Shown piece by piece: positions 25,722-43,349 of a stretch of 64,000 nucleotides of DNA. The stretch is from Natronorubrum thiooxidans. Lineage in GTDB: Archaea > Halobacteriota > Halobacteria > Halobacteriales > Natrialbaceae. The position numbers were made by a program, and so were the translations under genes. A model generated the notes under the pieces. The model was not told where the DNA came from. It made no database searches and worked only from the letters and a program-made list of their open reading frames with translations. The stretch is taken from NCBI RefSeq assembly GCF_900156475.1, contig NZ_FTNR01000001.1:124001-188000 (forward strand), written 5' to 3'. Position 1 is the stretch's first letter. Each line of letters starts with the position of its first letter.

Positions 25722-26167
25722 GTATCGCAGAGTTCGACGCGGACGTCGTCGTCGACGCCCGTGACTGTATCCTTGGTCGCGTTGCCAGCGAAGTGTCCCA
25801 GCGCGCCCTCGATGGCGAGCGTGTCGCGATCGTCAACGCCGAAGACGCCGTGATCACCGGCGACAAAGAGGACATTTTCGACACCTACCGCACGCGCATC
25901 CAACTCGGCTCCGACAACGGGCCGTACTACCCACGCCGACCGGACACGATCTTCAAGCGCTCCGTTCGTGGGATGGTGCCGTACAAGAAACCACGTGGCC
26001 GCGAGGCGTTCTCGAACGTTCGCGTCTACCTCGGCAACCCATACGAGGACGACGATGAGCGCGAGGCCGAGATCCTCGAGGGCACGTCACTGGACCGCCT
26101 GTCGAACATCCGCTTCGTCCACCTGGGCGAAGTCTCCGAACAACTCGGTGCTAACGTCACATGGTAA
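25718..26167 (+). CDS. rpl13: Ribosomal protein uL13
   Basis: 149 aa. Early-assembling 23S-binding protein. Contains [18 protein letters not shown], the [11 protein letters not shown] turn and the [17 protein letters not shown] segment typical of uL13. Overlaps eL18 by 4 bp and uS9 by 7 bp. Confidence 0.95.
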
Positions 26168-26559
26168 CGAACACGAGTGGAAAGAAAAAGACCGCCGTCG
26201 CTCGAGCGACCGTTCGCGAGGGCGAGGGTCGCGTTCGAATCAACTCCAAGCCAGTCGAACTGGTCGAACCGGAAATGTCCCGCCTCAAGATGCTCGAACC
26301 GTTCCGCATCGCCGGCGAGGATCTCCGCAGCGACATGGACATCGATGTTCGTGTCGAAGGTGGCGGTATCAGCGGCCAGGCAGACGCCGTTCGAACCGCT
26401 ATCGCACGCGGGATCGTCCAGCACTCGAACGACGCCGAACTCCGTGACGCGTTCATGGAGTTCGACCGCTCGCTGCTGGTCAACGACGTTCGCCAGTCCG
26501 AACCGAAGAAGTGGGGCGGCCCGGGCGCTCGGGCTCGCTACCAGAAGTCCTACCGCTAA
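26161..26559 (+). CDS. rps9: Ribosomal protein uS9
   Basis: 132 aa. Small-subunit head protein whose C-terminal tail reaches the P-site tRNA: the end [12 protein letters not shown] is the conserved tail with the terminal Arg. Other signatures are [22 protein letters not shown] and the [18 protein letters not shown] segment (in parts). Start lies inside the last codons of uL13. Confidence 0.95.
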
Positions 26560-26571
26560 GGTGATTCAATC

Positions 26572-26766
26572 ATGATGGTACCGGTCCGGTGTTTCAGCTG
26601 TGGGACTGTCGTCGGCGAACACTGGGAGGAGTTCGACGAGCGCGCCAACGAGGGCGACGAGGACCCCGAAAAAGTCCTCGACGAACTCGGTGTCGACCGC
26701 TACTGCTGTCGACGCATGCTCGTCAGTCACACTGACCTCGTCGACATCGTCTCTCCATACCAGTAA
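26572..26766 (+). CDS. rpoN: DNA-directed RNA polymerase subunit N
   Basis: 64 aa (or 63 from the second ATG at 26575, which gives the usual start [10 protein letters not shown]). Counterpart of eukaryotic Rpb10. The zinc-binding CFSCG and RYCCRRM motifs are complete, and it ends in the [11 protein letters not shown] helix. It sits between uS9 and rpoK with a 1-bp gap to the latter. Confidence 0.95.
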
Positions 26767-26767
26767 C

Positions 26768-26947
26768 ATGCAACAGGAACGTCACAACCGCTACGAGAAA
26801 GCACGGATCCTCGGTGCGCGAGCGCTGCAGGTGTCCTACGGCGCGCCGGTGTTGATCGAGACGGACCAGTCCGAACCGATCCTCATCGCTGCCGAAGAGT
26901 ACGACGCCGGGGTCTTACCCTTTACCGTCAATCGAGGGAACAAATGA
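26768..26947 (+). CDS. rpoK: DNA-directed RNA polymerase subunit K
   Basis: 59 aa. Counterpart of eukaryotic Rpb6 and bacterial omega, helping fold the largest subunit. The core [23 protein letters not shown] is diagnostic. ATG 26768 follows the rpoN stop by one base, and its TGA overlaps the enolase ATG by 4 bp. Confidence 0.95.
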
Positions 26948-28149
26948 CGCTGATTACGGACATCCGACTCCGACGCATCCTCGATTCGCGTGGCAACCCC
27001 ACTGTCGAGGCAGACGTCGTCACCGAGAGCGGTGGATTCGGCCGTGCTGCAGCACCGAGCGGTGCCAGCACGGGCGAGTACGAGGCCGTCGAGCGACCGC
27101 CCGCCGAGGCGATCGCCGCGGCTCGAGAACACGCTGTCGGACGACTCGTCGGTGACGCCTACGCGGGCAACCAGCGGGAAGTCGATTCAATTCTCCACGC
27201 CGCAGACGGCACCGACGACTTCTCCGAGATCGGTGCCAACAGCGCCGTCGCCATCTCGATGGCTGCTGCAAAAGCCGGAGCCGACGTTCTCGGCGCGCCA
27301 CTGTTCCAGCACTTAGGCGGTGCGTTCCGTGGCGAGAACTTCCCGATTCCGCTCGGCAACGTCGTCGGTGGTGGCGAACACGCAGCCGACGCAACCGACA
27401 TTCAGGAGTTTTTGGTCGCCCCCGTGGGCGCACCGAGCGTCGAAGACGCCGTCTTCGCCAACGCCGCCGTCCACAGCACCGTCGCCGACCTCCTCGAGGA
27501 ACGCGATGTCCCGTGTGGCAAGGGTGACGAAGGCGCGTGGGCACCATCGATCGACGACAGCGAGGCGTTCGAAATCGTCGACGAGGCGGTTTCGATGGTC
27601 GAAGACGACGTTGGTTTCAATATCGGCTTCGGCCTCGACGTCGCCGGTGCAGAACTGTACGATTCCGAGTCGGAAACGTACGAGTACAGCGACACGAGTC
27701 GCGATACCGACGAGCAGATCGCCTACATCGCAGAACTGGTCCGAGAGTACGATCTCGTCTACGTCGAGGATCCGCTCGACGAGAACGATTACGACGCCTT
27801 TGCCGACCTCACCGATGAGGTCGGCGATCAGACGCTGATCTGTGGTGACGATCTGTTTGTCACGAACACCGAGCGTCTTATCGACGGCATCGAACGCGAC
27901 GCGGCCAACAGCATCCTGATCAAGCCAAACCAGATCGGGACGCTGACCGACGCCTTCGATGCGATCGAACTCGCGACCCAGAACGGCTACGACTCCGTGA
28001 TCTCCCACCGGTCGGGCGAAACCGAGGACACGACGATTGCACACCTCGCCGTCGCAACCGATGCTCCCTTCATCAAGACGGGTGCCGTCGGTGGCGAGCG
28101 AACCGCCAAGCTCAACGAGCTCATTAGAATCGCAGACGACGCGACATGA
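26944..28149 (+). CDS. eno: Enolase
   Basis: 401 aa. Converts 2-phosphoglycerate to phosphoenolpyruvate. Family segments: [16 protein letters not shown] at the N-terminus, [11 protein letters not shown] (substrate loop), the catalytic Lys in [11 protein letters not shown], the metal-binding Glu in YVEDPLDE and the Asp in CGDDLF, and [18 protein letters not shown] near the end. It sits inside a translation/transcription operon, an arrangement shared by haloarchaea and other Euryarchaeota. Confidence 0.95.
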
Positions 28150-28949
28150 CAGACAACGACGCAACCCAGGAAGGGCTCGACGCAGCCGAAGACGAGATCG
28201 ACGAGGAGCCGGCCGAAGGGCCTGGCCCCGCCGCCGATCCCGAGGACGACGTCGAGCCAGTTGACGAACAGCCCGCCGACGCCGACGCCACCGAGGCCGA
28301 CGCCGATGCAGAACCAGCCGACGAAGATGCCGGTCCAACCCTCGACGACGACGTAATGTCCGACGAGGAGGCCGATCTCCTCATCCCAGTCGAGGACTAT
28401 CTCGGCGCCGGCGTCCACATCGGGACCCAACAGAAGACCGATGATATGGAGCGGTTCATCCACCGTGTCCGAACCGACGGTCTCTACGTGCTCGACGTTG
28501 GCAAGACCGACGGCCGTATCCGAACGGCCGCGGACTTCCTTGCGAACTACGACCCAGAGCAGATTCTGGTCACCTCGAGTCGCCAGTACGGTCGCTTCCC
28601 GGCGGAGAAGTTCGCCGAAGCCGTGGGCGCTCGCGCCCGTACCGGCCGCTTCATCCCGGGCACGCTGACCAACCCCAAATACGACGGCTACATCGAACCC
28701 GACGTACTCGTCGTCACGGACCCGATCGGCGACGCCCAGGCCGTCAAGGAGGCCATCACGGTCGGGATTCCCGTCATCGCAATGTGTGACTCGAACAACC
28801 AGGTTAGCAACGTTGATCTGGTCGTCCCGACGAACAACAAGGGTCGCAAGGCCCTTTCGGTCGTCTACTGGCTGCTCGCCAACGAAGTCCTCGATCGCCG
28901 CGGTGCCGAGCCATCGTACTCGCTCGAGGACTTCGAGAGCATGGTCTAA
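28146..28949 (+). CDS. rps2: Ribosomal protein uS2
   Basis: 267 aa. The conserved uS2 core starts near residue 80 ([17 protein letters not shown]...) and runs to [14 protein letters not shown]. The first 75 or so residues are an unusually acidic, Ala/Pro-rich leader with no basic residue in most of it, a haloarchaeal elaboration. Last gene of the operon; a T-run follows at 28972. Confidence 0.95.
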
Positions 28950-28971
28950 CCCGTTACACTGACGCTGTTCG

Positions 28972-28976
28972 TTTTT
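28972..28976 (+). terminator. T-tract terminator after uS2
   Basis: Five T residues 22 bp after the stop. Confidence 0.35.
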
Positions 28977-29043
28977 CTCGTCGCGATCGACGCCGAACAG
29001 CGACGAGCAAAGGAGTTACGTGCAGACCGGGCCAACGAGGGGT

Positions 29044-29169
29044 ATGCTCGATTCAGTATTCGAATTCGAAGAAGAAATGATGCCGCTGCCAGTGATCGCC
29101 GCGACGGCGGCGCTGATCGCAATTTTTGCGGTTGGGATTCCGTATCGCGTTCTCGTAGGGATTCTCTAA
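29044..29169 (+). CDS. 41-residue single-helix membrane microprotein
   Basis: An ATG at 29044 opens 41 codons: an acidic start (MLDSVFEFEEEMM) followed by a hydrophobic segment (about 14-32, PLPVIAATAALIAIF) and a short end YRVLVGIL before TAA at 29167. The charge pattern (acidic outside, Arg after the helix) is that of a small membrane protein. No family is recognised and nothing shows it is translated; a GAGGGG stretch 4 bp before the ATG may help initiation. Confidence 0.45.
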   Translation: MLDSVFEFEEEMMPLPVIAATAALIAIFAVGIPYRVLVGIL

Positions 29170-29437
29170 AACGTGTAACGATGCCCACCCCAGCTGGCTC
29201 GCGATTCCCCTCTCGAGTTTAAATACGAAGACGAGCCCAATCCGGGCATGGATCCGGTGGTCCCGCTCGAGGTGTGGCACAGATTACGATATACGTCGCT
29301 TTTTGGGATCGTCCCCGCAGGAAACACACTCGGTTCGGTATCGAGGCCGTCTCCAGCGGCTATTCGGGCGACGAACCCGTTCGCTCCCGGCAGCACTGGA
29401 CCGTCAAGCAACCACAGGGTAGCTCTCGCGGAGGACT
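29170..29437. other. Intergenic region before the DUF7285 operon
   Basis: Holds TTTAAATA at 29218-29225, a good TATA box. A start codon 23 bp downstream (29248) opens a 68-codon frame (MDPVVPLEVWHRLRY...) that overlaps the next gene by 17 bp; its composition is not convincingly coding. More likely the TATA drives the operon from about 29250, with a leader of nearly 190 nt. Confidence 0.4.
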
Positions 29438-29947
29438 ATGCCACGGGCAGCTAGAGCCCAGACCGAACCGCTGGCTGCGCTGGTCGCTGTGATGGCGCTT
29501 TTGACCGGTATTGGGCTGTACACCGTCTATCTCGGCAGTGTCCTTCCCGGCATGAGCGACCGTACGGTCGAAGAGACGGCGATCGATCGTGTCTGGGATG
29601 ACCTGCGCGACAACGAACGCGGCGCTGTTCCGGTCTACAGATACGCCGCTGATCCGGACAGAGAGCTTCGAGAAGCGCTTGAGCAAGCGTCGCTCCCAAA
29701 CGGCAAGAACAGTTACCTCGAGATCAGAGGCTACGAAGACGGTGAACCAACGGTCTTCGCGTCAGCACACTTCGATTCCGATGGCGATGATCTACGGGCG
29801 CGACAGCTCGCATCGACACACCCCGATTACGGCCCGCCTCGAGGAGCCGACGAACCGACCGAGACGGGTATTGCGACCCGTCCAATTTCGATTGAAGTCA
29901 CGGAGGCCGACGTTCGTGGCGGCACGCTGCACGTGGAGGTCTGGTGA
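29438..29947 (+). CDS. Membrane-anchored secreted protein (DUF7285-like)
   Basis: 169 aa. A short polar N-terminus (MPRAARAQTEPLAALVAV) leads into one hydrophobic helix (about 12-36), then an acidic outside domain ending in IEVTEADVRGGTLHVEVW. The N-terminal AQTEPLAALVAV pattern is that of DUF7285, one of several haloarchaeal proteins encoded with type IV pilus-like secretion genes. It resembles a minor pilin but lacks a clear class III signal site. First of three coupled genes. Confidence 0.65.
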   Translation: MPRAARAQTEPLAALVAVMALLTGIGLYTVYLGSVLPGMSDRTVEETAIDRVWDDLRDNERGAVPVYRYAADPDRELREALEQASLPNGKNSYLEIRGYEDGEPTVFASAHFDSDGDDLRARQLASTHPDYGPPRGADEPTETGIATRPISIEVTEADVRGGTLHVEVW

Positions 29948-31125
29948 GTATGGGCCACTTCGCCTCCGAACGTGGTGTCAGCACCGTCGTCGACGTCACC
30001 CTGGCGTTGCTCCTCATCAGTGCAAGCGTGCTGATTCTCGGCACCTATCTGGCCACCGTTCCTGACGAGCAGGCACGAAGCGCCACCGACCATGATTCGA
30101 CCGTGACGGCCGCTTCTCATGGCGATATCGACGGCCTGTCAGCGACTCGGACAACCGAGGTCCTGAGCACGTCGACGGTTACCGTCACGTACAGTCTCGA
30201 GGACGTCCGTGAGCAAGACACGTTCTCCGAACCGGTCATCATAAACGAGCAGACGTACACGCGAACCGATCACGGCTCGGCGCTCGGGCTGCTTGCCGAT
30301 GCCGCAGTCACGAACCACCGGATCGATGGCGAGCCCGTGCTGGCCTACGGCGAGGAGTACGAGGACGCCGTCGACTGGGCGATCCGACAGGCGCTACTGG
30401 GTACCGACCGGGAGTTCTACATCGTCGCCGAGTGGGAGCCCTACGACGGGGCCGGCATCAACGGCACGGCAACGGCCGGCGAGCGGCCCCCACCCACTGC
30501 GGACGTCTCCAGTACGACGACAATGGTCTCCAGTGGCTTTTCGGCGGTCGATGCCGACGAACTCGAGAAAAACTGGCTGGCGGCCGACGACTGGTGGGAT
30601 GACTGGATCGATGACGTGGCCGATGACCACCCTGAGATCGACGATTCGTCGGACGTGCCAAGACTAAAAGGAACCGACAACAAGTCGTACGCGGCGGCCG
30701 GCACCGTGATCGGCGACGAAATCGTCGATGGCCTCTTCCCGCCCAAATCGTCCCAGTACGCGCTGGAAGATCAGGGAATCCGGCGAGCGCTTAAAGTCTA
30801 CCACTACCAGTCGATGGTCGAGACCATCGGCGACTTCTCGTTCCGAAGTGCGGAGACACACCGACCGCTGGCTCGATCGAACGCGCGGGCCGAAGCGGCG
30901 AACCACAAGGTCCTCGTCGGACAGGACGGCGGCTACGACGTGACTGATGCAGACGCACTCGCCGCGTGGATTGCGGCGGACATCCCTCGAGCGTTCGCCG
31001 AAGAGTTCGACGCAATCGACGATCACTACGACGATGACGAGCGTGATGAGCAAAAAGCCGAGACTGTCGCCGATGCAGTGGCAATCGAAGACGTGACGAT
31101 TACCATTCAGATCTGGGACGAATGA
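29944..31125 (+). CDS. Membrane-anchored secreted protein (DUF7284-like)
   Basis: 393 aa (GTG at 29944 overlaps the previous stop; ATG 29950 gives 391). The N-terminus has the feature FASERGVSTVVDVTLALLLISASV: a pilin-like sequence in which RG-V-S-T precedes a hydrophobic helix (about 15-38). The exterior part is acidic with a region of helices (about 250-380). It matches DUF7284 in position and N-terminal form. Probably exported and membrane bound; role unknown. Confidence 0.65.
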   Translation: MSMGHFASERGVSTVVDVTLALLLISASVLILGTYLATVPDEQARSATDHDSTVTAASHGDIDGLSATRTTEVLSTSTVTVTYSLEDVREQDTFSEPVIINEQTYTRTDHGSALGLLADAAVTNHRIDGEPVLAYGEEYEDAVDWAIRQALLGTDREFYIVAEWEPYDGAGINGTATAGERPPPTADVSSTTTMVSSGFSAVDADELEKNWLAADDWWDDWIDDVADDHPEIDDSSDVPRLKGTDNKSYAAAGTVIGDEIVDGLFPPKSSQYALEDQGIRRALKVYHYQSMVETIGDFSFRSAETHRPLARSNARAEAANHKVLVGQDGGYDVTDADALAAWIAADIPRAFAEEFDAIDDHYDDDERDEQKAETVADAVAIEDVTITIQIWDE

Positions 31126-34100
31126 GACGCACTCGCCCACACACGATTTCGATTGCGGACGACGACCGCGCACGGATCCCGTTCGCGATTATCGGTGTCT
31201 TGCTTCTCGTGAGCTCCGTGCTGATCGTCGCGACACTCCAGACGAGACACGACCCCGAAATCGACCGCGGCACGGAGTTGGCGGTCGACCGCGCCGAAGC
31301 GTACGCGATCAGCGAACTCCGTCATGCAACCGTCCGTGCCACTGACGAAGTCGTCCGCTCACCGGTGACGACCGTCGATGCCGATATGAATGGTGTTCTC
31401 GATGACGACACCGCGTTCGAAGATCAGACGCGACTGACGATCCTCGCCAAAGCCACCGCGACACTCGACGGCCGGACACAGGACGTCGGGCAGGGCCGAA
31501 CCGTCGAGGTCTCGATGCCCACTGTCGACGACTGGACCGACGCAGACGACCTTGAGTCGGCACTCGAGTCCGTCACACTCGAGGAAGACGACGGGATCAT
31601 GGCGGTGACAGTCGACGACGTCGAGTTCACCGTGCGGGACAAAAATGGTGACGTCGAGACGGTCGTCTCACGCGACCTCACCGTTTCCGTAGGGACGACC
31701 ATGATGGCACTCCACGAGCGCGTTGAAGCGTACGAAACCCATCTGAACACGGGCATGCTCGAAGGCGTCGACGAGCGCGAGGGGTACGGCTACGACCTCG
31801 CAAAGCGGCTGTGGCCGCTCGTCTGGGGCAAGGCCTACTACGATCGGTTGCTCGGCGATCCCGCGGATCGCGCGTTCGAAAACGTCACCCCGAACGACCA
31901 CACCGAGGTCATGGCCAACGACGCCAGATTGACAGCCCAACAGGAAGTCTTCGGCACACAAGACGAGTACGGAAATCGTGTGATGGCGGGGCCGTTGCTA
32001 TGCATGTCGTACGATCTCTCGGATAGCGCCCTCGATCTCGGAAGTACGTACGATTTTGACGGGATTGCCGACGACCTCCACCCCGATGAGAACGTCAGTA
32101 GCGTCGATGAACTCTGTGCGGAAGGCGTCATCTCCCCGGATGGTGAGTTGCCAGCGATGCCAACTGTCGAGGAGATCGTGATGGGCATGCTCGAGAACGT
32201 CGACAAGAACGGCACGATCCAGGGCCATTCGTTCGCCGATCTGGCGATGTACGAGATGGAAGCCGGGCTTGGGCAGAGCGATCTCGAGGACGAGATGCGA
32301 GCGGGGCTCAACGAGACGGAACGGTTCAATGAGGCGTACCTCGAGGATTATTATGGACATAGTGAACGGTCTGAGTTCGATCAGGATAGTGACCCAGAAG
32401 TGTTGAACGAGATCCAAGGTGGTCTTGAAAATCTCAGAGACGAAGCTATTCTGGGCATCGATAATACTGATTCCGTTATCGACGATGTCTATACAATAAA
32501 TGGGAAGCTTGGAACCGTCAGCAGTTCCCCGTCTATGGATGGTCTCGGGCACCCACTTCCTCCGCTACCGGATGAATACGATGCTAGCAATTATACGGAA
32601 GTCGATCGCATGTATGTAACGACTAATACCGATATAGACGGGAGTGTCAATAAAGTCACCAAAGACGGCAGTGGTTCTGGTCTCGAGCGATCGCTCGTTA
32701 CAGTTGCTATCGAAGTCGAGATGAAATACGAGACCTATCGAGCGTGGAATAATACGACGACCAACTCTTCGGTCGATGTCTGGGAACACGATCAGCGGTA
32801 CACGAATTTTACTGCCTCGTTCGAACTCGATGGAGAGTTCGCTCCCGGTCTAACGATCAATCCGAACAGTGTTGATCACGTACTCGAGCAGGGTGGCTCT
32901 CCAGACCCGTACCTCGGAGAGCCAACCAACTGGGAAGACGCCGCTGATGAAGTGGCGAAAGAATTCTTTGGACGGGATTTTGATAGCGACTCAGAGTTCG
33001 AGAGATGGCTAAATGGGAGAGCCGATGATATTGAGTCGCGAAACGACTTCAGGAACGCTATCAACTACGACAGCAGCTTTGACAAGAACATTCAATTCTC
33101 GCCGCATAACGAAGGAGCGCTTCATAGCCACATTGTCTGGAATGATCTTCTCGAGGTGCATAATGAGACAGTGACCGAGATCGAACCAGTCGAGGCAGAG
33201 GTCATGGAAATGCTGACGGCTGACGAGAGTCCGATACGAGAGATGAACGAGAGTATCGCAGAAATGGAAGCGAAGCACGTGGACGACCGTGATGACTTCG
33301 AAAATGCACCTGACATTGCCAGAATGGAGGCACGGCAGGTGTACTTTGACAATATGTACAAATACGTCGATGAACTCGCCACCGAACACGAAAAGGTGAT
33401 GACTGGTGGTGGGAACCTCATCGACAGTCTTCTCGGCGGCTTTGTAGATTCGGTCAACGAGATTATCAACGGTCCGATGAACCTGCTTGACGAAATGCTT
33501 GGTTCTGGGGAGGAGTTACTGCGCAATGAAGGGGGTGCTGAAATCGATACACCGAATGTTCTGAACGACGTTCACGTTACTGTTGATGGCTCGCCGACGT
33601 ATCACTCGTCCCAGGTGGCAGTCAACCAGACCGAAGTACCGGCAGTACGAGCAGCGGGCGATGGTCCGCTCGAGATCGACGATGAGATGGATTTTGCACC
33701 GATGGGTGTCGGATACGAAAACGAGATTGGGCTACCAGGGTTTCCATTGATTCCATGGCCACCGATGTTCTATCTGCAAGCCGATGCGTGGCAAATCGAA
33801 CTCGAGGGAGAGTACGCCCGATTTGAGGTAGAAACGACCAGTGGCGATCCATCGGTAACTGAATCGACGACGTACATCCGTGAGGACAAGGATGTCACGC
33901 TTGAGACACCAGATGGTGACGAACTCGAGTTAGGATCAACTGACCCGATCAGCTACGAGAACAGCCAGACGATTCTCGTTGTCGTACCCGCACCGCAGTT
34001 CCTACCACAGGGTGCTCCTGGTGTCGGTGATAATCAACATAGTGGGGATGCATCTGGTGAGATGTGTTCACCATTCTTGGACGACACTGGTCCCGATGTT

Positions 34101-34142
34101 GGGGAGAACAGTACACAACCAAGCAGAGAAAGTTGCTTATAA
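31122..34142 (+). CDS. Large membrane-anchored secreted protein (DUF7286-like), mosaic composition
   Basis: 1006 aa. N-terminal stretch DDRARIPFAIIGVLLLVSSVLIVATL is a single membrane anchor (about 17-42); the remainder is extracytoplasmic, with GKAYYDRLLGD and coiled-coil-like segments (about 690-760). It fits DUF7286 by position and N-terminus. Base composition changes near 32330: for example 39/60 GC at 31501-31560 against 23/60 at 32461-32520. The C-terminal half also departs in style, with Asn/Ser-rich loops and a Cys-containing tail, so the 3' half may have been replaced by recombination. Overlaps the previous gene by 4 bp. Confidence 0.65.
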   Translation: MRRTRPHTISIADDDRARIPFAIIGVLLLVSSVLIVATLQTRHDPEIDRGTELAVDRAEAYAISELRHATVRATDEVVRSPVTTVDADMNGVLDDDTAFEDQTRLTILAKATATLDGRTQDVGQGRTVEVSMPTVDDWTDADDLESALESVTLEEDDGIMAVTVDDVEFTVRDKNGDVETVVSRDLTVSVGTTMMALHERVEAYETHLNTGMLEGVDEREGYGYDLAKRLWPLVWGKAYYDRLLGDPADRAFENVTPNDHTEVMANDARLTAQQEVFGTQDEYGNRVMAGPLLCMSYDLSDSALDLGSTYDFDGIADDLHPDENVSSVDELCAEGVISPDGELPAMPTVEEIVMGMLENVDKNGTIQGHSFADLAMYEMEAGLGQSDLEDEMRAGLNETERFNEAYLEDYYGHSERSEFDQDSDPEVLNEIQGGLENLRDEAILGIDNTDSVIDDVYTINGKLGTVSSSPSMDGLGHPLPPLPDEYDASNYTEVDRMYVTTNTDIDGSVNKVTKDGSGSGLERSLVTVAIEVEMKYETYRAWNNTTTNSSVDVWEHDQRYTNFTASFELDGEFAPGLTINPNSVDHVLEQGGSPDPYLGEPTNWEDAADEVAKEFFGRDFDSDSEFERWLNGRADDIESRNDFRNAINYDSSFDKNIQFSPHNEGALHSHIVWNDLLEVHNETVTEIEPVEAEVMEMLTADESPIREMNESIAEMEAKHVDDRDDFENAPDIARMEARQVYFDNMYKYVDELATEHEKVMTGGGNLIDSLLGGFVDSVNEIINGPMNLLDEMLGSGEELLRNEGGAEIDTPNVLNDVHVTVDGSPTYHSSQVAVNQTEVPAVRAAGDGPLEIDDEMDFAPMGVGYENEIGLPGFPLIPWPPMFYLQADAWQIELEGEYARFEVETTSGDPSVTESTTYIREDKDVTLETPDGDELELGSTDPISYENSQTILVVVPAPQFLPQGAPGVGDNQHSGDASGEMCSPFLDDTGPDVGENSTQPSRESCL

Positions 34143-34221
34143 TGCGTCCTAGTTATACACGATGAACAATCTAATAATGTGTCTACAAATGATGCCATCT
34201 CCAAATCAATCAATTTTGGTG

Positions 34222-35445
34222 TTAAGCATCCTCAATCGCGTACAATTTACTGTCATTTGCTGGAATATATATGATTCCATCAAACAGTGTTGGTGGTGCA
34301 GTAAATCCTCCATTCAAAGAATCATTAACAGTATATGACCATTTTGGAGTTCCGGAACTCGAATCAAACGCATATATACCGAACTGAGAGGAAGCATAAC
34401 AGGTATCGCTTGATATTACAACATCAGTAGGTGTGCCGGTGATCTTGTCGGTTGCTTCCCATTCAATGGTGCCGTTATTGTCATCAACGGCGATCAGACG
34501 ATTGGTGTCACCGATATAAACGAGTTTGTCAGAGACAGCAGGACTTGATTTGATTTCTCCCTCTGTATCGATTGACCACTCCTTCTCGCCGGAACCTGCG
34601 TTGATTGCGTACAATTGGCTGTCTTGACCTGTTCCAGTCAAATAAACACGTCCGTTGGCGACAGCAGGGTTGCTGTCAGACAACCGCCCTTCTTGTTCGG
34701 AATTAAATGTCCACTCAATCTCCGACGTCTCAACGTTCACTGCGTGAAGGTCAGACGAACGAGCAATGTAGAACGTATCCTCATCGAAAGCCGGCCAATC
34801 AGTTGACCCTCCAACGAAATCAGGCGTAGTGGTCACAGTAGTGTACTCACCTGTATGGGGATCAATCTGCCAGATCATCTCATGGGATGCAACAAAAATG
34901 CCATCTTCGGTCGGGATCGGGCCTCCGAGTCCAATGACAGATTCGATTTCCTCTGATCTCCATCGATCACCGGTTTCAGCATTGAATCCATGTATTTCTC
35001 CACCATCAGTTGGCCCATAGACAATGCCGTCGTGAACATTCGGTGCCCCAAATCCCTCTTGCTTCCAGAGAATTTCTTCAGTATCAAGGTCGACTGCATA
35101 GATTTTAGCGTCCCCTGATGCGCCGCCAGTACTTGAAATATATGCTATTCCATTAACAATAGACAATGGAAACGGAACACGCCCATCTATATCTATGACT
35201 GCCCGAGTATTCACTGTGTCTGTTTCAGGACCTATCGCACTTGGATGATACCCCGTATTCTGCAAATCAACCCCATACATCGGCCAGTCAGTTCCTAACG
35301 ACTCACCGTTACCACCGTCTCCATTCTCCCCACTCGAGGTATCGGTTTCGTCGTTTCCAGAACAGCCTGCAATCACAGTTGTTCCTGCAACACTTGCACA
35401 GGTTCCGAGCCAACGCCGGCGTGTCTGCGACAGTTGATTTTTCAT
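34222..35445 (-). CDS. PQQ-like beta-propeller lipoprotein, AT-rich
   Basis: 407 aa from ATG 35445 (an upstream in-frame ATG at 35451 is possible). The N-terminus has a Tat-like RRR motif (9-11) and a lipobox ending C28; a Glu/Gly/Asn linker follows. About seven beta blades follow, each with the PQQ-type end (EEILWKQEG, TSEIEWTFN, GEKEWSID, GTIEWEAT, TPKWSYT). It is probably an outside scaffold or sensor. The DNA is AT-rich for this window (22/60 GC at 34201-34260), with codons rare elsewhere in the region. It is oriented against both neighbours. Confidence 0.8.
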   Translation of the reverse strand: MKNQLSQTRRRWLGTCASVAGTTVIAGCSGNDETDTSSGENGDGGNGESLGTDWPMYGVDLQNTGYHPSAIGPETDTVNTRAVIDIDGRVPFPLSIVNGIAYISSTGGASGDAKIYAVDLDTEEILWKQEGFGAPNVHDGIVYGPTDGGEIHGFNAETGDRWRSEEIESVIGLGGPIPTEDGIFVASHEMIWQIDPHTGEYTTVTTTPDFVGGSTDWPAFDEDTFYIARSSDLHAVNVETSEIEWTFNSEQEGRLSDSNPAVANGRVYLTGTGQDSQLYAINAGSGEKEWSIDTEGEIKSSPAVSDKLVYIGDTNRLIAVDDNNGTIEWEATDKITGTPTDVVISSDTCYASSQFGIYAFDSSSGTPKWSYTVNDSLNGGFTAPPTLFDGIIYIPANDSKLYAIEDA

Positions 35446-35579
35446 TATCATTTCGTTCAAAGAGCCCAAATAAATAACCATTGGTATCTGAATTATCGTC
35501 AAATAAGTAAGTCTAATAATGATTTGTGCCACTCACTCGAGAAGATAGCTATTAACCGTCGTCGTGCGAACGCCAAGAT

Positions 35580-36566
35580 ATGGCAGTCTCGAGCGCTCCC
35601 GGCAAGGTGTATTTATTCGGGGAGCACGCGGTGGTTTACGGCGAGCCCGCTGTCCCGTGTGCCATCGAGGTACGGGCACGGGTCGGTGTCGAGCAACGGT
35701 CGGATAGCAAACTACGCATTCACGCCGAGGATCTCAGTCTGGACGGGTTCACGGTGGAGTATGGTGGGGCGACAGATGGGCCGCCAGATGTCGACGTCTC
35801 GGAGTCGCTGTTGACCGCAGCGATGGGGTACGTCGATGGTGCGATCGAGCAGGTTCGAGCGATTACCGGCGAGGAAGATATCGGTTTCGACGTGACAATC
35901 GAGAGCGACATTCCGCTGGGGGCAGGGCTTGGCTCGTCCGCGGCAGTCGCCGTCGCCGCGATCGACGCCGGGACCCGCGAACTTGGGACGACACTCGAGA
36001 TCGACGAACTCGCAGAGCGGGCCTACCGGACCGAGTACGAGGTACAGGGTGGACAGGCCTCCCGTGCCGATACCTTCTGTTCGGCCACTGGCGGTGCCGT
36101 CCGGGTCGAAGGCGACGACTGTCGGTCGCTCGAGGCCCCTGACTTGCCGCTTGTCATTGGGTTCGACGGCGGTGCTGGAGACACCGGTGAACTCGTAGCG
36201 GGCGTACGGAGTCTCCGTGAGGAGTACGATTTCGCGGCCGACACGGTCGATGCGATCGGTGATATCGTCCGAAACGGTGAGGCGGCACTCGCTGCGGGCG
36301 ATCTCGAGGAACTCGGTCGGTTGATGAACTTCAATCACGGTCTTCTCTCGGCACTGGGTGTCTCCTCCCGCTCGCTCGATTCGATGGTCTGGGCGGCCCG
36401 CGACGCCGGTGCAGACGGTGCGAAGCTGACGGGTGCTGGTGGCGGCGGCTGCATCGTTGCGCTCGATCCGACTGACGAAACCGAGACGGCGCTGTCGTAC
36501 ACGCCGGGCTGTGCGGACGCGTTCCGTGCTGAACTCTCTGAAACCGGGGTGAAGCGGCTCGAATGA
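35580..36566 (+). CDS. mvk: Mevalonate kinase
   Basis: 328 aa GHMP-kinase that phosphorylates mevalonate for archaeal lipid synthesis. Motifs: APGKVYLFGEHAVVYG at the N-terminus, the ATP loop PLGAGLGSSAAVAVAA (about 112-127), and the C-terminal motif GAKLTGAGGGGCIVAL. Its stop overlaps the isopentenyl phosphate kinase start by 4 bp. The pair belongs to the archaeal mevalonate route. Confidence 0.95.
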   Translation: MAVSSAPGKVYLFGEHAVVYGEPAVPCAIEVRARVGVEQRSDSKLRIHAEDLSLDGFTVEYGGATDGPPDVDVSESLLTAAMGYVDGAIEQVRAITGEEDIGFDVTIESDIPLGAGLGSSAAVAVAAIDAGTRELGTTLEIDELAERAYRTEYEVQGGQASRADTFCSATGGAVRVEGDDCRSLEAPDLPLVIGFDGGAGDTGELVAGVRSLREEYDFAADTVDAIGDIVRNGEAALAAGDLEELGRLMNFNHGLLSALGVSSRSLDSMVWAARDAGADGAKLTGAGGGGCIVALDPTDETETALSYTPGCADAFRAELSETGVKRLE

Positions 36567-37303
36567 TCGTTCTGAAACTCGGCGGTAGTGTCATTACGGA
36601 CAAGGATCGACCGGAAACGCTCGACGGCGATTCACTCGAGCAAGCCGCCGATGCGGTTGCAAACGCACTCGAGGGCGAGCCGGAGGATCTCGTGATCGTT
36701 CACGGCGGTGGCAGTTTCGGACACCACAACGCCAGCGAACACGGCGTGAGCACGATCGCGGGAACACACGACGCTGCGGCGGTCCTCGAGATCCACGGGG
36801 CGATGAAAACCCTGAATCAGTTCGTGCTGAGCCGCCTCCTCGATCGCGACGTGCAGGCGGTTCCTGTTCATCCATTCTCGACGGCTCACCGTGATGACAG
36901 CGGCGACCTCGAGTTACCGACCGGTCAGATCGAGACGATGCTGGGAGAAGGGTTCGTTCCCGTCCTCCACGGCGACGTGATCCCCCACACCGGCGTGGGT
37001 GCGACCATCGTCAGCGGCGACGAACTGGTCGCTGAACTGGCCCACGACCTCGAGGCCGATCGGATCGGGCTCTGTTCGACGGTACCGGGCGTGTTGGATG
37101 CAGATGAAGCGGTTATCGAGCGGATTTCGGCCTACGAAGACGTTGCCGCTGTCTTGGGAGCGAGCGAGGCGACCGACGTCACTGGCGGAATGGCAGCGAA
37201 AGTGCAGGCGTTGCTCGCGCTCGAAGCTGAGGCATCGATCTTCGGCCTCGAGGGACTCGCGTCGTTTCTCGGCGGTGAGAGTCCGGGGACGACGATTGAG
37301 TAG
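36563..37303 (+). CDS. Isopentenyl phosphate kinase
   Basis: 246 aa amino-acid-kinase-fold enzyme. It turns isopentenyl phosphate into IPP in the archaeal mevalonate pathway. Signature: LKLGGSVITDKDRPE at the N-terminus and VHGGGSFGHH with the catalytic His (H54), then GDVIPHTGVGATIVSGDE. It is coupled to mevalonate kinase (4-bp overlap) and ends directly against the stop of the opposite-strand histidine kinase with no base between. Confidence 0.93.
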   Translation: MIVLKLGGSVITDKDRPETLDGDSLEQAADAVANALEGEPEDLVIVHGGGSFGHHNASEHGVSTIAGTHDAAAVLEIHGAMKTLNQFVLSRLLDRDVQAVPVHPFSTAHRDDSGDLELPTGQIETMLGEGFVPVLHGDVIPHTGVGATIVSGDELVAELAHDLEADRIGLCSTVPGVLDADEAVIERISAYEDVAAVLGASEATDVTGGMAAKVQALLALEAEASIFGLEGLASFLGGESPGTTIE

Positions 37304-38380
37304 TTACTCGGGTTCGAGGTCGTTCGAACTCGAAATCGGATCGTCGTCGCTTGCATGCTCGGTATCGGTCGCTGCTGCCCGCGGAAGTGAAAACTGGACG
37401 ACGTTTCCACGCGGGGGGTTCGTCTCGAAGGACAGTTCACCGCCAAGCGAGTCGACACACCACTGCATTACCCACAGGCCGACACCGGAGCCGTGATAGG
37501 TGCTGCTTGTCGTCACATCGTCTTTGAGAACGTCGATCTCGACGTCCGGGATCGGCGGCCCGTTATCCGCGATCCGAATCACTCCCCGATCGGCGTTCGT
37601 TGTAACCAGTACCTCGACGGATGGAGTGTCGGCGTCGTTATGAACGATCGCGTTAATGAGTGCGTGTTCGATCGCATACCGAAGGCCCTGATCGACGTTC
37701 ACGCTGACGGCGGTCCGTATATCGGCGGTCAGTTCCACCGTCGGATACGCATCTTGTACCTCCGTGACAAGCTCTCGGACCATGGTGCCGAGATTTGTGG
37801 GTGAGCGCTGTGTCGCAGTGGGCTCTGCGATTTCCTCGATCTGCCGGATCGAGTCACTCAGCGTGCCGAGTTCCGTCGCGATCTCGAGGATCGTTTCGAT
37901 CTCCTCCTCGAGCGATTCTTCTTCGATGGCCCGTTTGAGCCGATCGGCGTACCCCATGAGGACGTTCGTCTCGTTTCGAAGGTTGTGACGGACGACACGG
38001 TTGAGCAAGCGTAGTCGCCGCTCTCGTGCCTTGTACTCCGTGATGTCGCGAACCTCGGCAATCACGTACGAGTCGGTGTCGATCGTGGTCAATGTGAGGT
38101 GAACACGAACCCAGACCAACTCACCGGTGTCACGTTCGATCCGCCATTCGAACAGCTGTGTATCACCGTCAGCAGCGGCCCGAATTCGGCGGATCGCTTG
38201 CTCCTGCGTGAATGCTGTCGAGGGGGCGGTGTATTCGCTGATGTCCATCTCACGAAGTGCTGTTCGAGAGTAGCCGTACAAGCGTTCCAGTCGCTCGTTG
38301 ACGTCGAGAATCGCACCCGTCTCGGGTTCGTGCAACACAATACCGACCTGCAGATCATCAAAGGTATCCGGTAATTTCAT
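37304..38380 (-). CDS. PAS-domain histidine kinase
   Basis: 358 aa, no membrane helix. One PAS domain (5-115) is followed by a HisKA helix pair with the phospho-acceptor H132 in RVVRHNLRNETNV, the haloarchaeal form of the H-box. An HATPase domain (about 225-345) has the N box IEHALINAIVHND, G1 IADNGPPIP and G2 GSGVGLWVM. It ends in an acidic tail. It probably senses an intracellular signal and phosphorylates an unlinked response regulator or acts in a relay. It sits alone between lipid genes and RNase J. Confidence 0.9.
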   Translation of the reverse strand: MKLPDTFDDLQVGIVLHEPETGAILDVNERLERLYGYSRTALREMDISEYTAPSTAFTQEQAIRRIRAAADGDTQLFEWRIERDTGELVWVRVHLTLTTIDTDSYVIAEVRDITEYKARERRLRLLNRVVRHNLRNETNVLMGYADRLKRAIEEESLEEEIETILEIATELGTLSDSIRQIEEIAEPTATQRSPTNLGTMVRELVTEVQDAYPTVELTADIRTAVSVNVDQGLRYAIEHALINAIVHNDADTPSVEVLVTTNADRGVIRIADNGPPIPDVEIDVLKDDVTTSSTYHGSGVGLWVMQWCVDSLGGELSFETNPPRGNVVQFSLPRAAATDTEHASDDDPISSSNDLEPE

Positions 38381-38576
38381 CCTCGTTTACCTACTTATCC
38401 TATTTCGACGTGTGAGGGAAGATAAGTGTTCTCGAATATGAAGGCGTTTCCTGATAACTCGGTATACCATTTCCGACACGATTTGAACCACCTCGAGAGG
38501 GGAGCAACGGCGTCGTTCGAACGGACGATCGACGACTCGACGGGGGCGGTGCAAGCGAATGCGCCCAACCCACTGC

Positions 38577-38788
38577 GTTTTTAACACCCGGGCGTGTATG
38601 AGCCACTAGCGAAACCCGCGGGCAAGTGCGTTCGGGACTCACGACTGTCGTGGGTCTGTTGGGGGCAACAGCCTCCCCGTGCGCATAGCGGGATGGCCGA
38701 CGCGCTGTAAGACGCCGGGGCCGAACAATCGGGAGTCCGCGGACCGTTTCGATGAGAGTCCACGACGCGGCTTTCAGTACAACGAACC
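38577..38788 (+). ncRNA. Structured leader or non-coding RNA before RNase J
   Basis: A TATA-like TTTTTAA (38578-38584) precedes about 180 nt of GC-rich sequence with no good reading frame, running up to the RNase J ATG. Two perfect hairpins lie side by side: 38637-38655 (8-bp arms, loop CTG) and 38656-38671 (CTGTTG, loop GGGG, CAACAG). A possible outer stem pairs GTGCG before them with CGCAT after them. Further hairpins: CCGA-ACAA-TCGG (about 38722-38733) and GTCC-GC-GGAC. It could be a leader or a separate RNA; no known RNA family was matched. Confidence 0.45.
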
Positions 38789-40141
38789 ATGGAAATCGAA
38801 ATCGCAACAATCGGCGGATACGAGGAAGTCGGACGGCAGATGACTGCTGTCCGCGCCGGCAACGACGTCGTCATCTTTGATATGGGTCTGAACCTCTCGC
38901 AGGTTCTGATCCACGACAACGTCGAAACCGAACGGATGCATAGCTTAGATCTGATCGACATGGGCGCGATCCCCGACGACCGGGTCATGTCCGAGTTGGA
39001 AGGCGACGTCAAGGCGATCGTGCCGACTCACGGTCACCTGGATCACATCGGCGCCATCTCGAAGCTGGCCCACCGGTACGACGCGCCAGTCGTCGCGACG
39101 CCGTTTACAATCGAACTGGTCAAACAACAGATCGAAGGCGAACAGAAGTTCGGCGTCGAGAACGACCTGATCAAGATGGACGCCGGCGAGACGATGTCGA
39201 TCGGCGACTCCGGCAAGGTCGACCTCGAGTTCGTCAACGTCACCCACTCGATCATCGACGCGATCAACCCCGTTCTCCACACGCCCGAAGGAGCAATCGT
39301 CTACGGACTGGACAAACGGATGGACCACACGCCGGTCATCGGCGACCCGATCGACATGAAACGGTTCCGTGAGATCGGTCGCGAGGGCGAGGGCGTTCTC
39401 TGTTATATCGAGGACTGTACCAACGCGAACAAGAAAGGGCGCACGCCCTCGGAGAACGTCGCCCGCGAACACCTCCGGGACGTCCTCTACAGCATGGAAG
39501 ACTACGACGGCGGGATCGTCGCGACGACGTTCTCGAGTCACATCGCGCGTGTGACAAGTCTCGTCGAGTTCGCCAAGGACATCGGCCGCCAGCCCGTCTT
39601 ACTCGGCCGATCGATGGAGAAGTACTCGGGGACTGCAGAACGACTCGACTTCGTCGACTTCCCGGACGATCTTGGGATGTTCGGCCACCGAAAATCAGTC
39701 GACCGCACGTTCAAACGGATCATGAACGAGGGCAAGGAAGACTATCTGCCCGTCGTCACCGGCCACCAGGGCGAACCACGCGCGATGTTGACCCGAATGG
39801 CTCGCGGCGAGACGCCCTACGAGCTGGACGACGGCGACAAGGTCGTCTTCTCCGCTCGCGTCATTCCGGAGCCGACCAACGAAGGCCAGCGTTATCAGGC
39901 CGAAAAGCTGCTCGGTATGCAGGGAGCCCGGATCTACGACGACATCCACGTTTCGGGCCATATGAACCAGGAAGGCCACTACGAGATGCTCGATGCGCTC
40001 CAGCCACAGAACATCATTCCCGCTCATCAGGACCTAAAGGGACTGTCGGGATACGTGACCCTCTGTGAGAGCGAAGGCTATCAGGTCGGACGGGACGTCC
40101 ACGTCACGCGAAACGGCAACCTCATCCAGCTTGTCGATTGA
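38789..40141 (+). CDS. rnj: RNase J, 5'-3' exoribonuclease
   Basis: 450 aa. Metallo-beta-lactamase/beta-CASP nuclease acting on RNA 5' ends. The zinc motif THGHLDH gives ligands H81, H83, D85, H86; the CASP insert follows (about 200-330), with the motif [12 protein letters not shown] near the end. ATG 38789 gives the family N-terminus [18 protein letters not shown]. It precedes the GGPP synthase gene by one base, a conserved haloarchaeal order. Confidence 0.93.
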
Positions 40142-41476: not shown

Positions 41477-42673
41477 CTAGATCGACTTGCAGGCTTTGAG
41501 CACGAGTTCCGGATTGTCGACGAGTTCGTGAATCGTGTGTGCACCTTTTCCATGGCCGCGTCCTTTCCGGGTCTGTTCGATAATCGAGAGGAACGCCAGT
41601 TCGCTGAGCAACTCACGGACGCGTCGGATTCGAAGCGGGTCAGAGCCCTCCTGTTCGCAGAGCACTTCGTACGTCGAGTAGATGTCCGCCGTCGGAATCG
41701 CCGGGTCGTCGTCGGGTGCCTGTTGGGTCCGGAACGCAAGCGCCTGCAAGAGGAGTTTCGAATGGGGTGGTTGTTTCGAGATGAGTTCGGCCAGCCGGTT
41801 TTGCTCTTCTCGAGTATGCGCTTGATTGACGTGTTCTTCGGTAACGGTTTCTGCCCCGTTCTCGTCGGCGATCTCGCCGGCGTAGCGGAGAATGTCGATC
41901 GCCTTGCGCGCGTCGCCGTGTTCTTTCGCGGCCAGCGCTGCCACGCGTGGGATAACCGAGTCCTCGAGGACGCCATCCTGGAACGCGTCTTTGCGCGACT
42001 CGAGAATCGCCCTGAGCTGGTTCGCGTCGTATGGTGGGAAGACGTAATCCCGTTCGCTCAGGCTAGATTTGACGCGCTCGTTGAGTTCTTCTTTGTACCG
42101 GATCTTGTTACTGATCCCGATAATCCCGAGCGTGCTCTCCTCGAGTTTCCCGGATTCGACGGCTCGAGAGAGTTGCATCAGGATGTTGTCGTCGCCGATC
42201 TTGTCGACCTCGTCTAAGATGATGATTCCGACGTCGAACCGACCGTCGAGGACGTTCCAGAGCCGGCGATAGTACTCGCCCGTGCTCAGCCCGGAGGCAG
42301 GAATCGTGATCCCTGTCTCCGCTTCGTCGTTGAGTTCGCGGGCGATCGTCCGCACTGCCTGTGTCTCCGTCGCGTGCTGGAGACAGTCGATATAGGCGAC
42401 GCCGATCGAGACGTCGTTTTTCGCGGCGCTCGAGCGGAGGTCCTTCGTAATATACTTCGAGCAGAGCGATTTCCCCGTTCCCGTTTTGCCGTAGATCAGA
42501 ACGTGATTCGGCGTCTGTCCCTGAACGGCGTCTTTGAGTGCCTGTGCGAGACTGTTGAGTTCGTCCTGTCGGCCGATGATCCGATCACCTTCGACGAGAT
42601 GTGAGATGCGAAGCAGATCCTTGTTCGCGAAGATGTAGTTTTGATTGTCGAAAAACGACTCTGAACCGGACAT
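41477..42673 (-). CDS. orc: Orc1/Cdc6 replication initiator
   Basis: 398 aa. An AAA+ ATPase with Walker A GKTGTGKS (62-69) and Walker B ILDEVDK (D154, E155, D157). The sensor region is GISNKIRYKEEL, and a winged-helix domain is at the C-terminus (about 305-398). It binds origin DNA and loads MCM. A TATA-like sequence on the minus strand (complement of about 42691-42703) implies a leaderless start at 42673. The start faces the repeat-rich region at 42674-43349, the usual place for its own origin. Confidence 0.93.
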   Translation of the reverse strand: MSGSESFFDNQNYIFANKDLLRISHLVEGDRIIGRQDELNSLAQALKDAVQGQTPNHVLIYGKTGTGKSLCSKYITKDLRSSAAKNDVSIGVAYIDCLQHATETQAVRTIARELNDEAETGITIPASGLSTGEYYRRLWNVLDGRFDVGIIILDEVDKIGDDNILMQLSRAVESGKLEESTLGIIGISNKIRYKEELNERVKSSLSERDYVFPPYDANQLRAILESRKDAFQDGVLEDSVIPRVAALAAKEHGDARKAIDILRYAGEIADENGAETVTEEHVNQAHTREEQNRLAELISKQPPHSKLLLQALAFRTQQAPDDDPAIPTADIYSTYEVLCEQEGSDPLRIRRVRELLSELAFLSIIEQTRKGRGHGKGAHTIHELVDNPELVLKACKSI

Positions 42674-42713
42674 ACGTCGGCAATATCCGAGTGGCTACTT
42701 AACGCTAACTCCT

Positions 42714-42878
42714 CAGTGCCGATGTAAACACACCGCAGTGCCGATGTAAATTTGTAAAACAACGGTCTCAGTCATTATGGGTGGGTTTTGTCTACTCCCC
42801 AGTGCCAGTGTAACTGGACCGGAGTGCCAGTGTAACGCGGTAGGACGGAACACACCCACCCCGGAGTGCCGATGTAAC
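42714..42878. repeat. Five direct copies of a 15-bp origin-like element
   Basis: Copies start at 42714, 42736, 42800, 42822 and 42864. They read (C/G)AGTGCC then GA or AG, then TGTAA(A/C). Start-to-start distances are 22, 64, 22 and 42 bp, close to 2, 6, 2 and 4 helical turns. On the other strand each reads TTTACATCGGCACTC or GTTACACTGGCACTG, usually followed by a G-run, the layout of archaeal origin recognition boxes. Confidence 0.85.
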
Positions 42879-42979
42879 TGTTCCGAACGTGTCCACGAGA
42901 AACGCTGGGGAGACGGATGTAGCAACGTGGAACCGAACGGAAAGCCGGAAGACGAGTCACACGCGTTTCGGCTGGACAC

Positions 42980-42999
42980 GTTGTGACCAACGTCACAAC
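42980..42999. repeat. Inverted repeat in the origin region
   Basis: GTTGTGAC, 4-bp centre CAAC, GTCACAAC: a perfect 8-bp inverted repeat 40 bp before the AT-rich core. Confidence 0.7.
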
Positions 43000-43132
43000 T
43001 CAACGGCTGTGACTCTCGTATGACCGATATCGAAGGTCCATTATTTATATGCTTTGGTATCGCTGTATAATGTCCGTCGAGCGAGATCACTATTTGACCG
43101 TTAGAATCGCTGTTGGGCTCACTCTCGGACGA

Positions 43133-43147
43133 TTTACATCGGCACTC
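43133..43147 (-). repeat. Sixth, inverted copy of the 15-bp element
   Basis: TTTACATCGGCACTC, the reverse complement of the copies at 42714-42878. It is followed by CGGGGTG, matching the flank of the copy at 42864 on the other strand. With the direct copies it brackets the AT-rich core. Confidence 0.85.
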
Positions 43148-43148
43148 C

Positions 43149-43196
43149 GGGGTGTGTCTGCCCCATTTGGACTGGGGTGTGTCTGCCCCACTTGGA
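43149..43196 (+). repeat. Two tandem 23-bp repeats
   Basis: GGGGTGTGTCTGCCCCA followed by YTTGGA, starting at 43149 and 43174 (25 bp apart). Each is itself a small GGGG-loop-CCCC hairpin. Confidence 0.8.
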
Positions 43197-43239: not shown

Positions 43240-43349
43240 ACGTTCTCGAGTAGAACACCGCTGTAGCTGTCAGCAATTCGGCTCTCGAGCACCGCTTGCT
43301 CAAGCAAACATCGCGGAGGTTTTGGTTCGGGGCCGAATACGTCTCGGTA

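Follow-up and report, generated by a model that had tools for sequence, protein, structure and literature searches.

A composition break inside a DUF7286 gene of Natronorubrum thiooxidans and its probable extension into an exchangeable tract with a convergent PQQ lipoprotein gene

Introduction

Surface variation and self/non-self systems of archaea are poorly known. Polymorphic toxin loci of the Rhs and CDI type have a conserved N-terminal part, an exchangeable and AT-richer C-terminal part, a linked partner gene and orphan units downstream. Such loci with orphan C-terminal/immunity units are described in the available portions of two accounts (PMC3967940, PMC4927057). VARTIG of the Thermococcales is a large surface protein whose C-terminal region varies through in-place exchange between species. 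According to the accessible text, smaller genes match this region, the protein has Ig domains and unique sets of downstream genes, the logic is likened to that of polymorphic toxin systems, and nothing closely comparable is reported from other archaea (PMC8416519). Two haloarchaeal descriptions, each likewise available in part, are also relevant. The cell-wall genomic island of Haloquadratum walsbyi contains surface genes made variable by exchange at a fixed position (PMC4535781), and halobacterial type IV pilus systems include a coiled-coil protein together with S-layer-like or adhesin components (PMC4858521).

The locus described here, from Natrialbaceae, consists of a DUF7286 gene and a convergent gene for a PQQ beta-propeller lipoprotein. 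It resembles VARTIG, as far as the accessible text describes it, in a variable C-terminal region that is exchanged in place between species (G108, G111 and G122). It differs in the DUF7286 protein itself, in the single convergent propeller partner, in the putative pilus-type operon and in an exchanged block that ends within both genes. The resemblance to Rhs/CDI loci lies in the conserved N-terminal part, the exchangeable C-terminal part and the orphan units of tail plus partner. Unlike those loci, the partner is convergent and the versions are homologous throughout. As in the H. walsbyi island, haloarchaeal surface genes are exchanged at a fixed place, but the available description concerns a whole-gene island and the block here is 3 kb with both ends inside genes.

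Results

Gene content and composition of the locus

The window is the whole 64,000-nt stretch of N. thiooxidans DNA that was analysed, and the features of the locus are listed in Table 1. The preliminary description had placed a composition break at about 32330 inside one uninterrupted reading frame, and both points hold. The DUF7286 gene is a single open frame (31122–34142, 1006 aa) with a GC3 of 0.77 up to codon 408 and 0.53 beyond it. This changepoint (about 32346; 2-LL interval spanning residues 398–411) has an LLR of 30.1, whereas 200 permutations reached at most 8.5. The step ranks first among 178 ORFs tested over 464 kb of the same genome, these being ORFs of at least 300 aa from a crude caller, with several runners-up that are probably over-extended starts. 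The earlier GC counts (39/60 at 31501–31560 and 23/60 at 32461–32520) were reproduced, and the 3′ part is, as had been said, richer in Asn (2.9 to 6.2%) and Ser (4.7 to 7.5%). It is not less acidic, with D+E at 21.3% versus 21.4%. The AT-rich remainder of the gene is real but continues beyond the gene: the top-scoring low-GC interval within 26001–40000 has a GC content of 0.484 against 0.613 outside, takes in the convergent PQQ gene and ends just short of the gene at 35580.

Table 1. Features of the DUF7286 locus, in window coordinates
Feature	Position	Strand	Basis
Ribosomal protein S2, left flank, conserved anchor	28146..28949	+	Pfam Ribosomal_S2; synteny
DUF7285 gene, short protein with N-terminal TM, same operon	29438..29947	+	Pfam PF23956, E 1.5e-25
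DUF7284 gene, 4-base overlaps with neighbours	29944..31125	+	Pfam PF23955, E 4.9e-76
DUF7286 5′ part, conserved, GC-rich; TM anchor and first ~408 codons	31122..32345	+	GC 0.612, GC3 0.77; PF23957
DUF7286 3′ part, AT-rich, probably exchangeable; codons 409–1006	32346..34142	+	GC 0.506, GC3 0.53; G007 identity step
AT-rich tract, composition signature of the probable cassette	32341..35560	.	Top-scoring low-GC interval in 26001–40000, LLR 85
Tail-to-tail intergenic gap, 79 bp	34143..34221	.	GC 0.354
PQQ beta-propeller lipoprotein gene, convergent	34222..35445	-	Pfam PQQ_2, E 2.6e-38; GC3 0.40
GHMP kinase (mevalonate-kinase-like), right flank, conserved anchor	35580..36566	+	Pfam GHMP_kinases_N; GC 0.642

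The lowest-GC3 stretch of the DUF7286 gene coincides with its least conserved segment (residues 402–480), conserved segments (780–960) are likewise GC3-poor, and the distal 100 or so residues (872–971) rank with the best conserved. Weak conservation was rejected as the source of the low GC3, for which z lies between -1.7 and -3.8 relative to the other window genes. An assembly chimera was rejected because independent genomes carry the break.

The DUF7286 protein matches its profile (PF23957) in three stretches with 380.7 bits against a curated cut-off of 27, and the partner matches PQQ_2 (PF13360) with 132.4 bits against 27.6. Pfam analysis of the DUF7286 protein returned DUF7286 alone, with neither a toxin domain nor an Ig family, and NCBIfam assigned no family to DUF7284, DUF7285 or DUF7286. 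An AlphaFold model from a 6-sequence alignment (pLDDT 37, pTM 0.27) is too poor to judge the fold. A literature search for DUF7286 and for DUF7283/7284/7285/7287/7310/7311 found no papers. The PQQ ORF is open to 35532, and its start was set at 35445 because the orthologues begin there. Its N-terminus presumably carries Tat-like RRRW and lipobox-like AGC motifs.

The operon of G021 encodes DUF7310 (coiled coil), DUF7311, a T2SSE ATPase and DUF7283, followed by DUF7285-7284-7286. A type IV pilus operon would also encode a TadC-like protein; the ORF of 576 aa next to the ATPase is without a Pfam match. With its coiled-coil protein and its ATPase, this operon may be related to archaeal type IV pilus systems; PQQ proteins and DUF728x are unnamed in the available portion of that account (PMC4858521). 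The window locus has no adjacent ATPase, and the ATPases are on other contigs.

Comparison of the window strain with its relatives

The break is located at about the same residue in all close full-length orthologues; a single recent replacement confined to this strain is therefore rejected. The nearest orthologue, from N. sulfidifaciens (G008), is equally conserved on both sides (0.858 and 0.836), and the step test against the nearest relative gave 0.82 before and 0.88 after, with no step. Against G007, conservation falls from 0.851 to 0.720, with an identity step at gene nt 1225 (1205–1234; about 32355) and recovery at about 35345, within the 5′ end of the PQQ gene. The window PQQ protein has 80% amino acid identity to that of G008 and 47% to that of G007. 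The window-strain block thus appears to be an old version held in common with N. sulfidifaciens and no fresh import. The preliminary description had read the break as replacement of the 3′ half of the gene by recombination. In congeners the 3′ part is indeed exchanged and the 5′ part conserved, but the timing and the unit were wrong: the replacement is not peculiar to this strain, and the unit is the 3′ part together with the convergent PQQ gene. The alignment of orthologues that it had proposed as a check gives, against G008, the outcome that it had named as refuting, as far as a recent replacement in this strain is concerned.

Exchange between congeners

Among congeners the flanks are 90–99% identical, and identity collapses within DUF7286 and recovers within PQQ. 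In G111/G122 it drops from 98 to 71% at nt 1125, and in G140/G143 from 97 to 57% at nt 2390. One genus carries strongly diverged versions of the block between near-identical flanks. A within-gene fall with an LLR of at least 18 was found in 12/23 pairs. The identity and GC3 steps coincide (within about 45 nt, in both genomes) in seven of these and lie apart in the other five, for example at 1117 and 942 in G120/G117. The remaining 11 pairs are without a strong within-gene fall; G024/G097, G004/G001 and G003/G006 each have one version in common, and in G036/G078 the difference is confined to PQQ. In genera g5 and g16 a break "at residue 872" looked extremely sharp, which proved to be a mapping artefact of an insert of about 210 aa; in their own coordinates the step is still sharp (nt 2361–2397).

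The right edge was scored in 11 of the 12 pairs given, L138 being left out for its same-strand PQQ gene. It falls within PQQ in nine, at codon 62–125 in seven of them; G123/G124 recovers 186 nt before the PQQ start and G084/G086 does not recover. The left edge is thus within DUF7286 and the right edge usually within PQQ, past the signal region. From the 5′ part to the block, dS in G111/G122 goes from 0.04 to saturated, 1.74 and 1.12. In G108/G111 it goes from 0.22 to 0.11, 0.12 and 0.05, and here the block appears to have been shared recently. Block versions move between species, and one genome is a clean mosaic. Where measurable, dN/dS in the block is 0.05–0.3. Two further divergent runs of at least 2 kb are located near the G140/G143 locus, which is therefore not unique there.

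The trees of the two parts conflict at the tips. The sister pair of the 5′ tree, G111+G122, is rejected by the 3′ data (p 2e-6), as is the grouping of the window with G002 (p 3e-5); the pair G108+G111 of the 3′ tree is in turn rejected by the 5′ data (p 8e-4). G008+G002 remains acceptable on the 5′ data (p 0.26), and the conflict in the window clade is therefore one-sided. The deep groups are identical in both trees, which indicates that both parts travel together over long times.

Survey of loci

A match was present in 71 genomes of the family, of which 57 were read; the other 14 (G014, G017, G028, G062–G065, G068, G087–G090, G145 and G147) were left out. L003 and L005 are on the same contigs as L102 and L113 and were counted once, and L126, at a contig end, is unclassed for PQQ. 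A GC3 step with an LLR of at least 7.6 is present at every one of the 48 loci that have PQQ downstream, and in 40/48 the LLR is at least 10. Of the 12 in-set loci without PQQ, three have a step (L037, L117 and L141), and L037 retains a 32-aa PQQ remnant. None of the 20 loci outside the family has either a step or a PQQ gene. The partner is convergent in 46/61 loci and on the same strand in two. Old tails persist with their PQQ gene as displaced orphan units in L051, L121 and L161, with a decayed one in L140.

Genome G000 has one DUF7286 locus and its best other PQQ match is 33%; antigenic variation from silent copies, as in vls or pilE, was rejected on these grounds. Plasmid records gave no match to the DUF7286 protein, and phage records gave two distant Klebsiella phage BamB-like matches to PQQ and nothing else; in these collections nothing therefore points to carriage by a plasmid or phage.

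Discussion

The AT-rich tract is best explained as an exchangeable cassette composed of the DUF7286 3′ part and the whole, or the greater part, of the convergent PQQ lipoprotein gene (probability about 0.8). Ordinary homologous recombination within the conserved coding ends for the N-termini would bring about the exchange, since the edges vary by genus and the few loci read showed no site-specific recombinase. The genes are tail to tail with their variable ends side by side, and one double crossover would therefore swap both variable C-termini and leave both N-terminal secretion/anchor ends in place. The block may owe its lasting AT-richness to the shared allele pool of rapid turnover from which it is drawn.

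A single ancient acquisition from an AT-rich donor before the genera split, with incomplete amelioration, would explain the common position of the break over the close set and the agreement of the deep groups. Third positions are saturated between many orthologues, however, and a neutral relic would therefore have been erased. The block is also demonstrably exchanged between close species in genera g8 and g5, and its edges are not the same between genera. This history is improbable and, as the sole cause, already hard to keep. Relaxed or diversifying selection on a surface domain, with fast amino acid change decaying codon bias and GC3 and no recombination, is the least probable reading. It fits the lowest GC3 at the least conserved segment but not the GC3-poor conserved segments, the conflicting tips, the low dN/dS of the block or the jump in dS of at least 25-fold at the edge, and it is refuted for g8 and g5.

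Regional mutation or recombination bias, such as weak GC-biased conversion or an effect of convergent transcription, could keep the region AT-rich with allele exchange secondary. Every version is AT-rich, in several genera, and the property tracks the PQQ gene. Against this, the step is rare at same-gene loci without PQQ (3/12 in-set, 0/20 outside the family), and the edge of the dip is the edge of exchange in 7/12 falling pairs; the bias is an unlikely main cause, if less so than the other alternatives. The variable C-terminus, linked second gene, arrays of orphan tails with partners and lower GC recall Rhs/CDI loci, in which case the DUF7286 C-terminus would be the toxin that is delivered and the PQQ lipoprotein would confer immunity to it. 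This seems doubtful, as does ancient acquisition: a toxin domain was not found by Pfam, the partner is convergent and without co-transcription, the distal residues are well conserved, and the versions remain homologous with low dN/dS.

Returning to the exchangeable cassette, DUF7286 may be a large protein of the envelope with a link to a type IV pilus-like operon, and the PQQ lipoprotein its surface partner or modulator. The diversity of the pair might be maintained because rare versions have an advantage, through viruses, competitors or self recognition. A tentative extension is that the locus constitutes a haloarchaeal two-protein recognition system with matched variable C-termini, in which the tail-to-tail order is itself the adaptation, letting one tract replace both matched halves in place and between species, and in which the orphans are displaced past versions.

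One close printed parallel was found, VARTIG in Thermococcales, as described in the accessible text. At the present locus, extant genera show the exchange with sharply defined edges, both of them intragenic. A within-gene GC break is usually taken to record one import in the past but can be the mark of a standing exchange cassette, and a GC3 step crossing a tail-to-tail gene pair offers a rule for genome scans. The gene order suggests a reason, as a tail-to-tail pair may be exchanged as a matched pair in a single step, and the recognition targets of the versions would be accessible to tests in culturable haloarchaea.

Composition break in the DUF7286 gene

The DUF7286 gene is a single frame of 1006 open codons in which third-position GC (GC3) is 0.77 up to codon 408 and 0.53 beyond it (LLR 30.1; maximum of 8.5 in 200 permutations). 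This bears out the composition change near 32330, inside an uninterrupted frame, that was reported in the preliminary description, and the step tops all within-gene steps among 178 ORFs of at least 300 aa (464 kb, same genome). The accompanying amino acid shift was seen in part: Asn and Ser both approximately double, but the protein is not less acidic, with D+E at 21.3% vs 21.4% across the break. The best low-GC interval is larger than first noted: it takes in the remainder of the DUF7286 gene, a convergent gene encoding a PQQ beta-propeller protein (Pfam PQQ_2) and the 79 bp between them, halting just short of the GHMP kinase gene. No other 3-kb stretch in the window is as poor in GC (0.487; elsewhere minimum 0.579).

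Coordinates of the features discussed, in window numbering unless another genome is named
Feature	Position	Strand	GC
DUF7286 gene	31122-34142	+	
PQQ beta-propeller lipoprotein gene	34222-35445	-	
GHMP kinase gene	35580-36566		
Best low-GC interval	32341-35560		0.484 vs 0.613
Milder GC dips (two)	42001-43500, 50001-51000		0.544-0.555
GC-rich stretch	46001-47500		about 0.70
DUF7286 and PQQ genes, locus of genome G005	6083-10431		
Further divergent runs aligned with G143, genome G140	299301-301401, 345201-347901		

Full-length DUF7286 orthologues with 66-84% identity are found in the genus and neighbouring genera. All carry the GC3 step, mostly near residues 366-412 and at residue 307 in genome G026. 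Protein identity to the nearest relative, N. sulfidifaciens (G008), is 0.858 left of the break and 0.836 right of it, and to N. bangense (G007) it is 0.851 and 0.720. The block in the window strain is not a recent event. Low conservation as the cause of the low GC3 was ruled out using a GC3-versus-conservation regression built on 181-229 segments from other window genes, against which the segments past codon 420 are all 1.7-3.8 s.d. low.

Exchange between congeners

Sliding nucleotide identity was calculated for 23 congener pairs, 12 of which show a strong within-gene fall (LLR 18 or more); in seven, the step in identity falls within about 45 nt of that in GC3. For G140/G143, identity is 0.97 before nt 2390 (2387-2390) and 0.57 after it, with both GC3 steps at 2385. 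The corresponding positions are 2363 vs 2361 and 2364 for G141/G142, 1127 vs 1131 and 1134 for G123/G124, and 1225 vs 1215 and 1215 for the window and G007. The remaining 11 pairs show no strong fall, with G024/G097, G004/G001 and G003/G006 among those that have one common version. Another of the 11, G036/G078, differs in the PQQ gene alone.

The pair G111/G122 is 97-100% identical along the flank for the most part and in the opening 1.1 kb of the DUF7286 gene, 42-84% identical across the rest of this gene and the PQQ gene, and then 93-99% identical again; the block is their sole aligned divergent run of at least 1 kb in approximately 61 kb, whereas G140/G143 have two further runs of this kind. 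The dS of G111/G122 is 0.04 before the block and climbs to 1.12, 1.74 and saturation within it; that of G108/G111 falls from 0.22 to 0.05-0.12. These opposite shifts indicate that G111 combines a front like that of G122 with a block like that of G108. Topology tests concur, rejecting G111+G122 with the 3' data (p 2e-6) and G108+G111 with the 5' data (p 8e-4). In the clade that includes the window, window+G002 is rejected on the 3' data (p 3e-5), but G008+G002 is not rejected on the 5' data (p 0.26). Over DUF7286 nt ~1450-2650, identity between G008 and G002 is about 95%, vs 75-92% around this stretch, which is likely a conversion tract. Where measurable, dN/dS is 0.03-0.33 throughout, so the versions are long-standing and purifying selection acts on them. 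We assign a probability of about 0.9 to exchange of the tract itself. The earlier proposal that the 3' half had been replaced holds as to recombination, but the unit is a recurrent two-gene cassette, and in this strain the block is old.

Identity recovers inside the PQQ gene in 9 of 11 scored pairs, seven of them within codons 62-125 of the ORF as called, past the signal region. With edges inside both genes, the exchanged unit comprises the C-terminal parts of DUF7286 and of the convergent protein, leaving both N-terminal ends outside. In G126/G127 two patches differ, separated by sequence of ~95% identity: one covers nt ~1050-1650, the other takes in the DUF7286 tail and the C-terminus of PQQ. 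Across 20 close pairs, PQQ identity tracks the distal DUF7286 segment (rho 0.78) over the 5' part (0.24), for which linkage alone could suffice.

Association with the PQQ gene

The 61 loci compared come from 57 family genomes (of 71 with a match) and G058, outside the family, with two loci each in G003, G006 and G030. The downstream PQQ gene is convergent (tail-to-tail) in 46, on the same strand in two and absent in 12; one locus meets a contig end. A GC3 step with LLR of at least 7.6 is present in 48/48 PQQ-bearing loci (at least 10 in 40) and in 3/12 PQQ-less loci, the other nine being below 5. One of these three, in G002, retains a PQQ remnant of 32 aa. In other families (20 loci), the same gene has neither a PQQ gene (0/20) nor a GC3 step (0/20; largest LLR 4.7), and none of 11 congener pairs tested there shows a sharp identity fall.

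The left edge varies by lineage, lying around residue 400 in the group to which the window belongs and near 955-974 in most others. In seven loci of genera g5 and g16, the AT-rich tract starts within an insert of ~210 aa placed at window residue 872. Additional DUF7286-7284 copies on ~210-kb contigs of G003 and G006 are without a PQQ gene or GC step, and an XPB-like helicase gene adjoins that of G003. The G005 locus has no DUF7284/7285 matches and no S2 or GHMP kinase flanks, so DUF7286 and PQQ are able to sit elsewhere.

G030 and G086 share the order DUF7286, PQQ, detached DUF7286 tail, second PQQ, the G030 tail being 89% identical to that of its own DUF7286. At the other G030 locus, a detached tail (78% to the G075 tail) is flanked by two PQQ genes, and a full DUF7286 gene was not found within the 14 kb read. 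G031 has a decayed orphan unit. These units look like versions displaced downstream on arrival of a new one. G004 and G001 carry a tandem PQQ pair downstream with no detached tail between.

Known systems and possible function

Orphan-unit logic is shared with Rhs/CDI loci. Those loci have a toxin domain and a co-directional immunity gene, neither of which was found in the DUF7286-PQQ block. DUF7286 and its operon families are unnamed in the literature searched, and the entries listed there contained no description of a DUF7286-PQQ-type locus. The nearest published system found is VARTIG, for which the authors report no close counterpart beyond Thermococcales (PMC8416519).

DUF7285-7284-7286 form an operon of overlapping genes, which in G021 additionally holds DUF7310, DUF7311, a T2SSE ATPase and DUF7283, content that points to a type IV pilus-like setting. 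The ATPases of the window genome are located elsewhere, away from these genes. The block may encode outward-facing recognition surfaces, with the PQQ protein a putative partner of DUF7286. The reading favoured, tentatively, is a surface recognition or adhesion pair whose diversity is kept by frequency-dependent selection.
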